From assembly GCF_001267885.1 (NCBI RefSeq), contig NZ_CP012382.1, positions 2,095,001-2,159,000 of the forward strand: a stretch of 64,000 nucleotides of DNA, read 5' to 3'. Below the pieces are notes generated by a model that searched no databases, had not been told where the DNA came from, and was given only the letters and a program-made list of their open reading frames with translations. The position numbers and the translations under genes were made by a program. Origin of the DNA: Streptomyces ambofaciens ATCC 23877. GTDB taxonomy: Bacteria > Actinomycetota > Actinomycetes > Streptomycetales > Streptomycetaceae. Each line of letters begins with the position of its first letter. The first letter of the stretch is position 1. This document shows, one piece after another, positions 20,706-25,313 of this stretch.

Positions 20706-21806
20706 CTAGGGGTTGATCGCGAGTTCCAGATACGCCGCGAACAGCACCAGGTGGACGCCTCCCTGCAGGGGCGTCGCACGGCCCGGCACGACGGTCAGCG
20801 AGGCCACCACGACGGTCAGGGCGAGCAGCACCATGTGGGTGGGTCCCAGGCCCAGTACGAGCGGTCCGGAGAGCCACACGGACGCGAGGGCGACCGCCGG
20901 GATGGTCAGGCCGATGCTGGCCATCGCCGAGCCGAGGGCCAGGTTCAGGCTGGTCTGCACCCGGTCGCGGCGTGCGGACCGCACCGCGGCGATGGTCTCG
21001 GGGAGCAGTACCAGCAGGGCGATGATGACGCCGACGACGGCGTGGTGCAGTCCCGCGGCCGCCACGCCCTCCTCGATGGTGGGCGAGACCCCCTTCGCCA
21101 GACCGACCACGCCGATCAGGGCCAGGCCCAGCAGCCCCAGGCTGAGCAGCGCCGTACGGGCGGACGGGGCGTGGGCGTGCTCCTCGAAGGTGATCACCTC
21201 GCCCTGCCGGGTGATCGGCAGGAAGTAGTCACGGTGCCGCACCGTGAGGGTCGCGATGAACAGGCCGTAGAGGATCAGCGAGGAGATCGCGGCGAACGTC
21301 AGCTGCACGGTGGAGAACTCCGGGCCGGGCGCGCTGGTGGTGAACGTGGGCAGCACCAGGCTGAGTGTGGCCAGGGTCGCGACCGTCGCGAGGGCGGCGC
21401 CGGTGCCCTCCGGGTTGAACACCGCGATCCCGTGGCGCAGTGAGGCGACCAGGAGGCTGAGACCGACCACGCCGTTACAGGTGATCATGACGGCCGCGAA
21501 GACCGTGTCCCTGGCCAGGGTCGCGCCCTTGTCGCCGCCGTCCGCCATGAGGGTCACGATCAGCGCGACCTCGATGACCGTGACGGCGACCGCGAGGACC
21601 AGGGACCCGAAGGGTTCTCCCACCCGGTGGGCGACCACCTCCGCGTGGTGCACGGCGGCCAGCACGGCCGCCGCGAGCACGATCGTCAGGAGCGCCACGA
21701 TCCCGCCGGGCAGATCCCGGCCCCAGGTGAAGGCCAGCAGCAGGACCGCCGCCACGGGAGTGACGGTCGTCCACTGTGCGAGGAGATCCCTGGGACGACT
21801 GACCAT
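20706..21806 (-). CDS. chaA: Calcium:proton antiporter, ChaA-like
   Basis: An integral membrane cation/H+ exchanger of the CaCA superfamily, 366 aa from the ATG at 21806 (a 15-residue longer form from 21851 is possible; neither has a clear SD). About ten to eleven hydrophobic helices are visible. The two CaCA alpha-repeat regions carry the expected acidic residues: PFGSLVLAVAVTVIEVALI in the first half and VLLPETIAAVRSARRDRVQT with LNLALGSAMASIGLTIP in the second. A hydrophilic loop near 190-220 (RHRDYFLPITRQG...EEHAHAPS) splits the halves. It likely exports Ca2+ or other cations. It follows the TerC gene on the same strand after about 200 bp and may belong to the same cation-stress theme. 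Confidence 0.93.
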   Translation of the reverse strand: MVSRPRDLLAQWTTVTPVAAVLLLAFTWGRDLPGGIVALLTIVLAAAVLAAVHHAEVVAHRVGEPFGSLVLAVAVTVIEVALIVTLMADGGDKGATLARDTVFAAVMITCNGVVGLSLLVASLRHGIAVFNPEGTGAALATVATLATLSLVLPTFTTSAPGPEFSTVQLTFAAISSLILYGLFIATLTVRHRDYFLPITRQGEVITFEEHAHAPSARTALLSLGLLGLALIGVVGLAKGVSPTIEEGVAAAGLHHAVVGVIIALLVLLPETIAAVRSARRDRVQTSLNLALGSAMASIGLTIPAVALASVWLSGPLVLGLGPTHMVLLALTVVVASLTVVPGRATPLQGGVHLVLFAAYLELAINP

Positions 21807-22014
21807 GCGGCGATCGTCGCAGAGGGCTACGACACTCGCACTCCCTGTCATGCGGACCGGGGGCGCGTCCCCTCATCCGTCACACGGCCTCACGGGCCGG
21901 CGTGCACCACCCGGAACGGCCGCCGTCCACGGCGCCGACAGGAGCGGCGGACGGCTCCTCGCCGCCCGCCGCTCCCGGTGGTGCTCGCTACGCCCGGCTG
22001 GGGGCCGTGCGCGG

Positions 22015-23016
22015 TCAGGCCTCGACGCTGTCCTTCGGAGCCTCGTCGCTCCCGGTGGCAGCGGCTTCGGCCTCGGCCTGCTTCTTGGAGGCCCGGAGGC
22101 TGGTGATCGTGGTGACGATCAGGACGGAGCAGATCACGCCGAGGGAGACCGGGATGCTGATCTCGGGGACGTGGACCCCGGACTCGTGCAGGGCGTGCAG
22201 CACCAGCTTGACGCCGATGAAGCCCAGGATGACCGACAGACCGTAGGAGAGGTGCACCAGCTTCCTCAGCAGGCCGCCGAGGAGGAAGTACAGCTGTCGC
22301 AGACCCATCAGGGCGAACGCGTTGGCCGTGAACACGATGTACGGGTCCTGGGTCAGGCCGAAGATCGCCGGGATGGAGTCGAGCGCGAAGAGCACGTCGG
22401 TGGTGCCGATCGCGAGCATCACGACCAGCATCGGGGTCATGACGCGCTTGCCGTTCTGCTCGATCCACAGCTTGGTGCCGTGGTAGCGGTCGGCGACGCC
22501 GAAGCGGCGCTCGGCCGCCTTGAGCAGCTTGTTCTCCTCGAACTCCTCGTCCTCCTCGTCGGCACGGGCCTCCTGGATGAGCTTCCAGGCCGTGTAGATG
22601 AGGAAGGCGCCGAAGATGTAGAAGACCCAGGCGAAGTTGGCGATGATCGCGGCACCCGCCGCGATGAAGACGGTCCTGAGGACCAGGGCGATGAGGACAC
22701 CGATGAGGAGCACTCGCTGCTGGTACTGCGAGGGCACCGCGAACTTCGCCATGATCAGGATGAAGACGAAGAGGTTGTCCACACTCAGGGACTTCTCGGT
22801 GATGAAGCCCGCGAAGAACTCGCCGGCGGGCTGGCCGCCGCCGAAGATGAGCAGGCCGACCCCGAAGAGGCCCGCCAGGGCGATCCAGACGGCCGTCCAG
22901 ATCCCCGCTTCCTTGATCGATACGTCGTGCGGCTTGCGGCCGATGAAGAAGTCGGCCCCGATCAGGGCGGCGAGGCCCACGACGGTCAGGACCCACAGGG
23001 TCACGGAAACTTCCAC
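22015..23016 (-). CDS. TerC family membrane protein (Alx-like, putative Mn2+ exporter)
   Basis: A 333-aa TerC/Alx-type integral membrane protein with about nine transmembrane segments. Family motifs: TEKSLSVDNLFVFILIMAKF and AIGTTDVLFALDSIPAIFG, both with the conserved acidic residues in the membrane, then PYIVFTANAFALMGLRQLYF. A charged cytoplasmic loop (ADEEDEEFEENKLLKAAERRFG) and an acidic C-terminal tail are present. E. coli Alx and other TerC members are linked to manganese export. The start is GTG at 23016, eight to nine nt after GGAGG. That SD is locked in a 10-bp hairpin and preceded by a yybP-ykoY-like leader, so control by Mn2+ at the translation level is expected. Confidence 0.95.
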   Translation of the reverse strand: MEVSVTLWVLTVVGLAALIGADFFIGRKPHDVSIKEAGIWTAVWIALAGLFGVGLLIFGGGQPAGEFFAGFITEKSLSVDNLFVFILIMAKFAVPSQYQQRVLLIGVLIALVLRTVFIAAGAAIIANFAWVFYIFGAFLIYTAWKLIQEARADEEDEEFEENKLLKAAERRFGVADRYHGTKLWIEQNGKRVMTPMLVVMLAIGTTDVLFALDSIPAIFGLTQDPYIVFTANAFALMGLRQLYFLLGGLLRKLVHLSYGLSVILGFIGVKLVLHALHESGVHVPEISIPVSLGVICSVLIVTTITSLRASKKQAEAEAAATGSDEAPKDSVEA

Positions 23017-23193
23017 TACTACGCCTCCGGCAGTACGTCACACGGCAGATGTCAGCGTCGTCGCTGCCGGAGGTCTCTTCCACCCGGGTCCGGGACGCAT
23101 GACGCGTTCGGAACTCGCGGGCCGACGCCCCGGGATCTGGCCTGATCCGTATTGACGGGTACGCCGCACAGACAGGGAGTACTCCCCTCCGTA
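23017..23193 (-). ncRNA. Candidate yybP-ykoY (manganese) riboswitch leader of the TerC gene
   Basis: The minus-strand leader shows, in order, GGGGAGTAC (plus 23179-23187), CGTCAATACG (plus 23148-23157), and GGAAGAGACC close to the downstream stem (near 23080). As I recall the yybP-ykoY family, these resemble its conserved L1 (GGGGAGUA), L3-type (CGUCAA) and GGnnAGACC elements. The leader is about 177 nt long. The gene is a TerC/Alx homologue, the classic target of this riboswitch in E. coli. The 10-bp stem at 23024-23073 covers the SD and is a likely expression platform. A covariance-model search was not possible here. Confidence 0.6.
23024..23073 (-). promoter_or_regulatory. SD-sequestering hairpin before the TerC start
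   Basis: CCTCCGGCAG (plus 23024-23033) is the exact reverse complement of CTGCCGGAGG (plus 23064-23073), with a 30-nt loop. On the minus-strand mRNA the downstream arm contains GGAGG, the SD for the GTG at 23016, so the stem would block ribosome binding. Confidence 0.8.
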
Positions 23194-23199
23194 CGGACG

Positions 23200-23228
23200 A
23201 CAGTACCCCATTCCCCAAGGGAAGGTAA
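23200..23228 (-). promoter_or_regulatory. Sigma-70-type promoter of the TerC transcript
   Basis: On the minus strand, -35 TTACCT (plus 23223-23228), a 17-bp spacer and -10 TACTGT (plus 23200-23205). A start about 7 nt downstream (near 23193) falls just before the conserved leader elements, which supports both assignments. Confidence 0.55.
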
Positions 23229-23270
23229 AGAGATTCGCAAATTAAGCTCAAAAGGCCAGGTAGAGCGCCG

Positions 23271-25313
23271 TCACCGATCCCACGAACGGCGGGCCGCGGC
23301 GACCTGGGAGAGCACGTGCCGGAGGACCTGACTGCCGGGCGGCACGAGTGAGGGCTCGTACGTCCACGCGTGCCCCACCCACGGGTCGGCGAGGTGGTCG
23401 TCGGCCACCGGCGTCAGCCGGAGCAGCGAGCGCCACAGCGGATCGAGCAGCGGCCCGTACCCGGCCGAGTCCTCACGGTCGGCGACCATCATCAGGTGGA
23501 CCCCGACGGCGGGCCCTTCGTCCGCGAGGTACCGCAGCTGGTTCACCGCCCGGTCGTCGAAGCCGTGCGGGAAGTCATGGACGATCAGGAGCTGCTGGGA
23601 GGTGTCGAGCCCGGGAGGGAGCGCGTCGGGGGCGCCGCCGCGCAACGCCATCTGCACGAGATCGACGCGCTGGGTGAGGCGCGCGAGCACGTCAGCCGTG
23701 CCGGCGGCTCCCAGGGCGGGCGGGGCGGCGAGCACCCCGCTCTGCGTCAGGGGTGCCAGTGCCTGCGTGCCCGACCCGGCCGGATCGATGACGTGCACGG
23801 TGAACTCGCCCGCCGGATACACGGCGAGCAGCCGCGCCGCGTGGGCGACCGCCGTCTCCAGGCCCAGACTCCGCATCTCGTGGGAGTCGGCGAACGAACC
23901 GTCGAGCGAGGCGGAACGCCCGCTGTCGATCCACAGCCCGCGCTCCAGCGGCAGCCGGACCAGCAGGGGGATGCGTATGCGCTCGGCCTCGGGCAGGTGG
24001 AGGTCACCCAGCCGCAGGGCCATGGGGATCTCCATCGGTACGCGGTAGGCGTGCCAGACGGGGCTGTCCCAGCTCGCGAAGGCCATCGGCAGGGCGGGCT
24101 CGACGACGTCCGCCTCGGCGGCGAGCTGGGCGACGTCCCGGTCGAGGGCCTCCTGGGCCTGGGACACGAGCTGCCCGTACCGCGCGCGGGCCGCCTCCCG
24201 GGCGGCGTCGCCCTGACCGCCGATCCGGCTGCGCGGGTCGGACAGGACCTGGTCGAGCTCCTTCTCCATCCGGGAGTCGGCGAAGTCCACGGCGCTGCGG
24301 TACGCGGCCGTGGACCGGGCCAGATCCTCGAACATGCCCCACACCTGGTTGTAGAGCCGCTCCTCCATGGACCACCCGGTGGCATCGCCCGCGACGGGCG
24401 GCGCCGGCTGTCCCGGTGCGGCCGGGGGCGCGGTCGGCGGCGGAGGGGGCGGAGCGGCGTTCTGCCGGCGTGGGTGGCTGTAGTCGATGGAGCCACCACC
24501 CGTGGGCGTGGACGGCCGACCGGCGGTGGAGGGGTCCCCCGGTCCGCCGGGGTGCGGCTGTTGCATCCCTTGCTGCGGCGCGGTGGCGGGGGTCTGCGGG
24601 CCGGGAGCGGGCTCGGGGTCGTACGGGGAGACCGGTGGTACGGGGCCCGTGGCACCGTGGGGTGCGGCGGCGCCGTGGTCCGGGCCGTGCGCCGGTGCGG
24701 TGGTCTGCCGGGGACGGTCGCCGTCGGCGGTACGAGCCGGAGGCGCCGGCACGGACCGGGCCAGGCCGCCGGCCACCGCTTCGTGGATGCTCCCGGCGAG
24801 CTGGTGGGCCTCGGGCAGGTTCTGGTCGGTGAGGAGCTCGGCGATGCCTCCGGCGTAGCCTTGGCCGACGGCCCGCACCTTCCAGGCGCCCTGCCGCCGG
24901 TAGAGCTCCACCGCGACGACGGCGGACTCCGCCTCCAGACCGGTGATGGTGTAACTGGCGACCTCGTCGCCGTCGAGACCCGTGACGGCGACGAAGGGGG
25001 CGGCGACGGCCCCGAAGCGGGCCGGACCGCTCCCGGCCGCGGGCAGGGCGAGCAGCACGCTGACCCGGTGCACGGCGTCCGGCACGGCGTCCAGGTCCAC
25101 CGCGAGGCGGTGATCGGCGGCGGCCTGCCGGGAGACCTCCAGGCCGGGCAGAGTGGGCGTGCCCGGGTGGGCCACCCACTCGACGCCGTGGACCCTGCCG
25201 TTCTCGTCGCCGAGCGTGGCCCCGGCCACGACCGGTGTGCCGGCCGAGATCCGGATCTCCAGACGGGCCCGGGGAAGCGGGTGGTTCTGTCCCCGCGTCA
25301 GCTCGGCCGTCAT
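23271..25313 (-). CDS. TerD-domain protein with a degenerate FtsK-like C-terminal domain
   Basis: A 680-aa multidomain protein. Residues 15-175 are a TerD domain (LEIRISAGTPVVAGATLGDENG, YTITGLEAESAVVAVELYRRQGAWKVRAVGQGYAGG), a calcium-binding fold of tellurium/stress resistance systems. Residues 185-310 are a Pro/Gly/Ala-rich linker. Residues 315-400 are helical and charged. Residues 408-680 look like an FtsK/EccC-type ATPase: RIPLLVRLPLERGLWIDSG (447-465) sits where those proteins have strand-P-loop, but GxxxxGK[ST] is missing; VHVIDPAGSGTQAL and LLIVHDFPHGFDD (575-587, Walker-B-like) follow in the right order. This assignment is inference from motif order. The start is ATG at 25313 after GGGGGA. 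It lies between TerD and TerC on the same strand. Confidence 0.9.
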   Translation of the reverse strand: MTAELTRGQNHPLPRARLEIRISAGTPVVAGATLGDENGRVHGVEWVAHPGTPTLPGLEVSRQAAADHRLAVDLDAVPDAVHRVSVLLALPAAGSGPARFGAVAAPFVAVTGLDGDEVASYTITGLEAESAVVAVELYRRQGAWKVRAVGQGYAGGIAELLTDQNLPEAHQLAGSIHEAVAGGLARSVPAPPARTADGDRPRQTTAPAHGPDHGAAAPHGATGPVPPVSPYDPEPAPGPQTPATAPQQGMQQPHPGGPGDPSTAGRPSTPTGGGSIDYSHPRRQNAAPPPPPPTAPPAAPGQPAPPVAGDATGWSMEERLYNQVWGMFEDLARSTAAYRSAVDFADSRMEKELDQVLSDPRSRIGGQGDAAREAARARYGQLVSQAQEALDRDVAQLAAEADVVEPALPMAFASWDSPVWHAYRVPMEIPMALRLGDLHLPEAERIRIPLLVRLPLERGLWIDSGRSASLDGSFADSHEMRSLGLETAVAHAARLLAVYPAGEFTVHVIDPAGSGTQALAPLTQSGVLAAPPALGAAGTADVLARLTQRVDLVQMALRGGAPDALPPGLDTSQQLLIVHDFPHGFDDRAVNQLRYLADEGPAVGVHLMMVADREDSAGYGPLLDPLWRSLLRLTPVADDHLADPWVGHAWTYEPSLVPPGSQVLRHVLSQVAAARRSWDR

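Follow-up and report, generated by a model that had tools for sequence, protein, structure and literature searches.

Proteins of the TerC family act in Mn2+ export or in the metallation of exported proteins. Among regulatory RNAs, the closest described systems belong to the yybP-ykoY family (Rfam RF00080). Crystal structures of yybP-ykoY riboswitches revealed a four-way junction with stacked P1/P2 and P3/P4 (PMC11087558), and showed that an L3 adenosine, A41 in L. lactis (UCA41AUUC) and A48 in X. oryzae, contacts Mn2+ through its N7 (PMC6754395). In E. coli, such a riboswitch activates the initiation of mntP translation in response to Mn2+ (PMC9603457). A yybP-ykoY leader before terC is already known in C. 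glutamicum, where cg2157 carries an RF00080 leader with an observed transcript and a score of 49.13 bits in the Rfam used in that paper (PMC3890552). The Streptococcus mgtA aptamer has a three-way junction and binds Ca2+ more tightly than Mn2+, and its activation in vitro is stronger with Mn2+ (PMC9495176). A survey places yybP-ykoY among the widely distributed motifs, in groups including Corynebacteriaceae and Mycobacteriaceae, and the available part of its main text does not mention Streptomyces for this motif (PMC3766115). A literature search, with most subscription papers outside it, returned no accessible text that describes either such an RNA for Streptomyces or a P2-less group among actinobacteria, which is weak evidence of novelty.

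The window analysed here is a 64,000-nt stretch of Streptomyces ambofaciens ATCC 23877. The 5' leader of its terC gene is best read as a compact, P2-less relative of the yybP-ykoY riboswitch with a three-way junction and a translational switch, for which comparison of sequences suggests a probability of about 0.8, with Mn2+ as the presumed ligand. The features of the locus are as follows.

23223..23228, minus strand: -35-like element TTACCT (conserved form TTTACC, 23224-23229), assigned from position and conservation
23200..23205, minus strand: -10-like element TACTGT, conserved, 8 nt ahead of P1.1
23186..23191, minus strand: putative P1.1 5' strand (CGGAGG), partner 23068-23073
23180..23185, minus strand: L1 5' side (GGAGUA), six positions invariant in 72 of 72 aligned sequences
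23176..23179, minus strand: putative P1.2 5' strand (CUCC), a 4-position helix with partner 23078-23081
23167..23175, minus strand: single-stranded linker at the place of P2, where the consensus fold predicts no pair
23123..23166, minus strand: predicted P3 hairpin, with P3a (23162-23166/23123-23127), P3.1 (23156-23159/23129-23132) and P3.2 (23144-23148/23133-23137)
23149-23155, minus strand: L3 (UCAAUAC), loop within the P3 hairpin
23153, minus strand: third nucleotide of L3, at the place of the Mn2+-binding adenosine as assigned from PMC6754395; A in 72 of 72 sequences
23082..23122, minus strand: predicted P4 stem-loop of variable length, in which basal pairs vary with pairing kept, plus G74-Y114
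23078..23081, minus strand: putative P1.2 3' strand (GGAA), partner of CUCC
23074..23077, minus strand: L1 3' side (GAGA); GAGA in 57 of 60 and AAGA in 3 of 60 distant aptamers, in a tally that admitted these two forms alone
23068..23073, minus strand: putative P1.1 3' strand (CCUCCG), common to the aptamer and the anti-Shine-Dalgarno helix
23024..23073, minus strand: putative expression platform, in which CCUCCGGCAG (23064-23073) pairs with CUGCCGGAGG (23024-23033)
22015..23016, minus strand: terC/alx-type membrane protein gene, 333 aa, GTG start, from Pfam and TIGRFAM matches
20706..21851, minus strand: Na_Ca_ex (ChaA/CaCA-like) cation exchanger gene, directly 3' of terC and possibly co-transcribed
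23271-25313: TerD-domain gene, upstream neighbour of terC

Protein searches showed that the product of the window's terC matches PF03741 and also TIGR03718 (R_switched_Alx) at 382.6 bits, compared to a cut-off of 246.4, and it belongs to the Alx subfamily, whose name it shares with E. coli Alx. The alx and mntP riboswitches of E. coli are of the yybP-ykoY family and are likened to the present leader by description. In agreement with the first-pass annotation, three elements resembling those of the family occur on the minus strand in the order GGGGAGTAC (23187-23179), CGTCAATACG (23157-23148) and GGAAGAGACC (23081-23072), and the TerC start codon, GTG at 23016-23014, lies after them. The three-element pattern GGGGAGTA..GTCA..GAGACC, which was written post hoc once the sequence was known, has a single occurrence in the window and was absent from all 150 first-order Markov windows generated.

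Eighty loci (L003-L082) were gathered by the TerC protein alone, independently of the leader. Within the flanks examined, the TerD-domain gene was upstream of terC in 76 of them, and the Na_Ca_ex gene was downstream on the same strand in 65. The leader was present in 78 of the 80 loci, the other two being L041 and L080. This is the fair count of the leader, since L083-L112 (30 of 110 loci, L083 being the window), which contribute to the larger figure of 109 leader-carrying sequences out of 111, were found with the leader DNA itself. A search with the leader DNA (E≤0.001) gave a match in 54 of 61 genomes of the genus; the genomes behind these leader counts may overlap.

The leader had also been credited with its own promoter, a 17-bp-spaced TTACCT...TACTGT. 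Both hexamers are found on the minus strand, at 23228-23223 and 23205-23200 with a 17-nt spacer, and they belong to conserved elements: in 76 of the 78 TerC-protein-found loci, TTTACC falls in the 60-nt stretch before GGGGAGTA and, over 109 rows, the first copy sits at the promoter position in 79 and farther upstream in 26, with none in the other 4. In the ungapped columns of the -10-like hexamer, the first T, the A and the final T are kept in 102, 101 and 104 of the 109 rows, respectively. Since a sigma-70 consensus scan of 21700-23400 recognised no promoter, TTACCT/TACTGT included, the promoter is assigned from conservation and position, and that part of the claim stands without the consensus match. 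From these conserved elements, transcription would start about at the beginning of P1.1.

When the leader was folded without constraints, its minimum-energy structure contained no aptamer and was no more stable than expected from shuffled sequences (z -1.05; 35 of 200 shuffles equally stable), and comparative evidence was used for this reason instead of single-sequence folding. Numbered from 23195, the proposed fold consists of P1.1 (5-10:123-128), L1 (11-16/119-122), P1.2 (17-20:115-118), the linker (21-29), P3a (30-34:69-73), P3.1 (37-40:64-67), L3 (41-47), P3.2 (48-52:59-63) and P4 (74-76:112-114 and beyond); the first position of P1.2 in the window is C.A. Model R1 was built from 60 of 61 non-redundant leader aptamers (alignment A1; L054 left out), and alignment A2 comprises 72 sequences, namely the window, 9 from Streptomyces and 62 others. 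The RNAalifold consensus on A2 was the identical structure with the additional G74-Y114 pair, in an alignment whose fitting to R1 biases this result and the pair counts toward that structure.

Within Streptomyces alone, covariation was weak, with two-sided change in only 3 of 26 pairs, and distant loci were therefore needed. At E≤0.1, R1 matched 212 of 394 Actinomycetes genomes, in 70 of 137 genera, with the window's genus accounting for 36 of the 212; other, weak R1 matches in the own genome (E of at least 1.1) were taken as chance. Sixty distant loci were hand-picked among the R1 matches listed, so that counts on them do not describe a random sample. According to tblastn, TerC is encoded downstream in 56 of the 60 (in L178 at 29% identity only), which independently confirms the RNA matches. 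In L168, L169, L171 and L200, the aptamer precedes a protein of 272-291 aa, a candidate new Mn2+-controlled protein; the two of these proteins submitted to Pfam, from L168 and L171, matched no family. The four proteins have in common a stretch like YDYLLQTADPHxxEQIHRxAFARLxPxQR.

In A2, 97.2% of cells pair, compared to 80.1% after shuffling and at most 57.2% when the alignment was slid, and 298 cells show two-sided change against 81.7 in shuffles, again in an alignment fitted to R1. Two-sided changes were found in 19 of 26 pairs and, for helices 3-6, in 11 of 14. Alignment-free counts were made on 60 distant aptamers (L203 left out and the second copy of L194 included), for which GTCA in L3 and (G/A)AGAC(C/T) for L1' were demanded, with no aptamer lost thereby, and one unrelated GAGTA in L194 was discarded. 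P1.2 pairs in 57, 60, 60 and 60 of the 60 at its four positions, mainly as TCCC/GGGA (20), CTCC/GGAG (14), CTTC/GAAG (11) and TTCC/GGAA (10). P1.1, from the outermost pair inward, pairs in 34, 55, 56, 59, 60 and 60 (90% overall), with GGAGG:CCUCC, CGAGG:CCUCG, CAAGG:CCUUG and GAAGG:CCUUC as the main variants. The predicted helices P1.1, P1.2, P3.1, P3.2 and P4 are thus backed by covariation. Both GGAGUA of L1 and the A at the third position of L3 are invariant throughout the 72 aligned sequences.

These core positions resemble those of the RF00080 members from L. lactis and X. oryzae, which have GGGGAGUA/(G,A)AGA in L1, P1.1 as the switch helix and an invariable L3 adenosine, with UCAAUUC in L. 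lactis compared to UCAAUAC in the window (PMC6754395). By comparison with RF00080-type loci, P3.1/P3.2 and P4 are also alike. The window differs in having no P2, with a three-way instead of a four-way junction and P1.2 as a 4-position helix, and in that its element is not matched by the RF00080 model. For P2, the consensus fold (RNAalifold) has no pair within the linker; GAGUA and GUCA lie 17-22 nt apart in all 60 distant aptamers, and 18-31 nt apart in the set from Streptomyces, a stretch mostly used by P1.2 and P3. With P2 missing, the junction is three-way and the element is a variant of yybP-ykoY. A missing P2 has a precedent in the Streptococcus mgtA riboswitch, which is described as also having a three-way junction (PMC9495176) and which differs in gene and phylum and in an aptamer that binds Ca2+ too.

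The first-pass annotation had called the leader yybP-ykoY-like and proposed a run of the RF00080 covariance model, which gave no match at gathering score in the window, nor any at E≤10 in 22700-23600. No Rfam family attained its gathering score in the whole window; at E≤10, 22700-23600 gave four chance-level matches, RF00080 not among them, and the whole own genome gave two weak RF00080 matches only, both elsewhere (E 1.7 and 5.0). In 20 of the 60 distant loci, those that were searched at E≤1, no Rfam family matched. RF00080 matched 10 of 246 genomes of the phylum at E≤0.01 and passed the gathering cut-off in 1. Inspection of the model showed that its consensus structure pairs a short P2 and P3 and leaves P1 and the 3' side of L1 unpaired, and that its 3' half is U-rich. 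With P1 and the 3' side of L1 thus missing from the paired structure, the null result does not refute the relationship, and these unpaired parts may explain its poor reach in a GC-rich phylum. Conversely, R1 applied to 11 RF00080-type loci matched the same place as RF00080 (best E 1.5e-4, 0.0025 and 0.0076, the remainder at least 0.025), and there were also weak matches off that place (E 0.17-0.78); the former link the leader element to the yybP-ykoY family. The yybP-ykoY-like identity is supported by the shared L1 and L3, the covarying P1.1, P1.2, P3 and P4, the TerC/Alx gene downstream and a P1.1 strand able to pair with the Shine-Dalgarno (SD) region as well; against it stand the missing RF00080 match and the missing P2, and the RNA is classed as a variant related to yybP-ykoY, not as a member of RF00080. 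A leader RNA that is conserved but has no relation to yybP-ykoY, and shares short words with it by chance, would account for the missing RF00080 match; we regard this as very improbable given the same order of L1, L3 and L1' with covarying helices, the overlapping gene classes, the R1 matches at RF00080-type loci and the pattern's occurrence in 0 of 150 simulated windows.

The strand CCUCCG of P1.1 opens a 10-nt stretch complementary to CUGCCGGAGG, and the expression platform is thereby predicted to compete with P1.1. In the ligand-free folding model, the 10-bp helix CCUCCGGCAG:CUGCCGGAGG has pair probabilities of 0.96-0.98 and covers the SD sequence GGAGG (23024-23028), which lies 7 nt before the terC start codon and is hidden with a probability of about 1. 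Downstream helices with seven or more base pairs were found in 77 of the 78 protein-found Streptomyces loci (15% in whole-set shuffles) and in 47 of the 60 distant aptamers (19% in shuffles), and the other 13 distant aptamers have no 7-bp downstream helix. For 43 of the 47 distant helices, the partner resembles an SD and is followed at 2-18 nt by a start codon. The ability of the P1.1 3' strand to pair with the SD region suggests a translational ON switch, the simplest reading of the leader and the one that would parallel E. coli mntP.

Two folding results weigh against this reading. Enforcing the aptamer gave a fold of -68.0 compared to -82.9 for the off fold, thus 14.9 kcal/mol less stable in a calculation without tertiary contacts or metal. 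In this enforced fold, the SD was still paired, with the first terC codons, at a probability of 0.89-0.97 in the folding model, and for this reason our probability for the switch was lowered from 0.82 to 0.80. The SD/first-codon hairpin is short, has G-U pairs and would be open to ribosome competition, but release of the SD is still presumed. At 23005-23028 of the window, GGAGG can pair with UUUCC in the first terC codons, and comparable GTTTCC codons turn up, by eye, in several of the Streptomyces loci.

Persistent pairing of the SD would also suit control at the level of transcription, with the alternative hairpin working via Rho or pausing and SD pairing being secondary; Rho-dependent effects are invisible in sequence, and the low-GC relatives L248 and L264 show, by eye, a downstream hairpin with a U-tract. 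Against this, in the window the SD itself is what competes; it lies 7 nt ahead of the start codon, there is no U-tract, and a terminator scan of 21700-23400 found none on the terC strand. Control of transcription is accordingly improbable in our view.

For the translational ON switch, three steps are proposed. At low free Mn2+, CCUCCGGCAG would pair with CUGCCGGAGG near the start codon, hiding the SD GGAGG and keeping terC off; the pairing is conserved, and its regulatory effect is presumed. Judging from the identical core nucleotides, Mn2+ would then bridge L1 and L3 via the adenosine at the third position of L3, stabilising P1.1. Finally, P1.1, itself backed by covariation, would capture CCUCC, which would free the SD region and allow translation of TerC, and TerC would move excess Mn2+ from the cytoplasm or metallate exported proteins. 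The RNA switch thus probably opens the ribosome-binding site when metal is plentiful.

Model R2 (E≤0.001) matched 67 of 296 genomes of the phylum, in 49 of 198 genera. Among 40 further loci hand-chosen from the R2 matches, 15 have TerC, and six proteins from the other 25 were assigned by Pfam, two as GDT1 and one each as an M50 protease with a CBS domain, a Na/Ca exchanger, a P-type cation ATPase and a SAICAR synthetase; the proteins of L236, L242 and L243 were left out because of a probable wrong reading frame. The element thus precedes genes for the transport of Mn2+ or divalent cations. The SAICAR synthetase is the long open frame downstream of L248; L248 and L264 seem by eye to have no P2 and are perhaps under transcriptional control. 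Some genomes (G144, G262 and G197) have two to four R2 matches, and L194 carries two aptamers within 1.3 kb. A second, X. oryzae-like form of the aptamer, with (G)UCGACA(C/U)ACUG in L3, was seen by eye in L230, L232, L234, L236-L238, L242 and L243; a GDT1 antiporter downstream was confirmed for L230 and L234, the latter from a genome of the window's genus, and similar proteins were seen by eye in L232, L237 and L238.

The variety of downstream genes bears on the ligand, since the same fold might respond physiologically to another ion, either Ca2+ or Mn2+ together with Ca2+, if the missing P2 alters docking and hence selectivity. GDT1 (in Pfam a divalent cation/proton antiporter), the Na/Ca exchanger and the P-type cation ATPase among these genes would fit, as would the Na_Ca_ex gene next after terC in the window and the preference of the Streptococcus three-way-junction mgtA aptamer for Ca2+ in binding, whereas activation of mgtA in vitro is stronger by Mn2+ (PMC9495176) and the L1 core and L3 adenosine match Mn2+-specific members (PMC6754395). 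On balance another physiological ligand is unlikely. Further-reaching, and doubtful as a whole, is the proposal that the P2-less aptamer is a major Actinomycetota Mn2+ riboswitch subtype, overlooked because the reference model misses its shape, and that loss of the arm retuned selectivity toward Mn2+ together with Ca2+. A single RNA might then coordinate TerC, GDT1, P-type ATPases and Na/Ca exchangers throughout the phylum, and Streptomyces would have lost it naturally more than once. The Mn2+-responsive reading itself predicts that many actinobacteria, antibiotic-producing Streptomyces among them, control manganese efflux or metallation through an RNA, which RF00080 misses in the genomes tested. 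It also suggests that the Mn2+ aptamer can dispense with P2 but not with L1, L3 and P1.2.

Ten members of the genus had no leader-DNA or R1 match, namely six of the seven without a leader-DNA match (the seventh, G050, 82% complete, was left out) and the four listed without an R1 match, and all ten encode a TerC-like protein. Nine are orthologues with 73-86% identity, and the tenth is 43% identical. GAGTA was absent from the 230 nt upstream of terC in the nine orthologues (L269-L277), and R2 gave no convincing match in L269-L278 (best E 0.023, a partial match in L274 read as intragenic; others at least 0.54). No aptamer accompanies the two further full-length TerC genes of the own genome, and R2 found none in L217 and L219 (paralogues), L220, L221, L041 and L080, with a best E of 0.03, in L080 about 1 kb beyond the terC stop, and the others at least 0.53. 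Ten Streptomyces terC loci (L041 and L269-L277) are therefore without a recognisable aptamer, and terC can do without it. By eye, L272 and L273 retain the anti-Shine-Dalgarno hairpin though the aptamer core is missing, and several leaders among L269-L277 and L041 retain a promoter-like stretch and a Shine-Dalgarno sequence.
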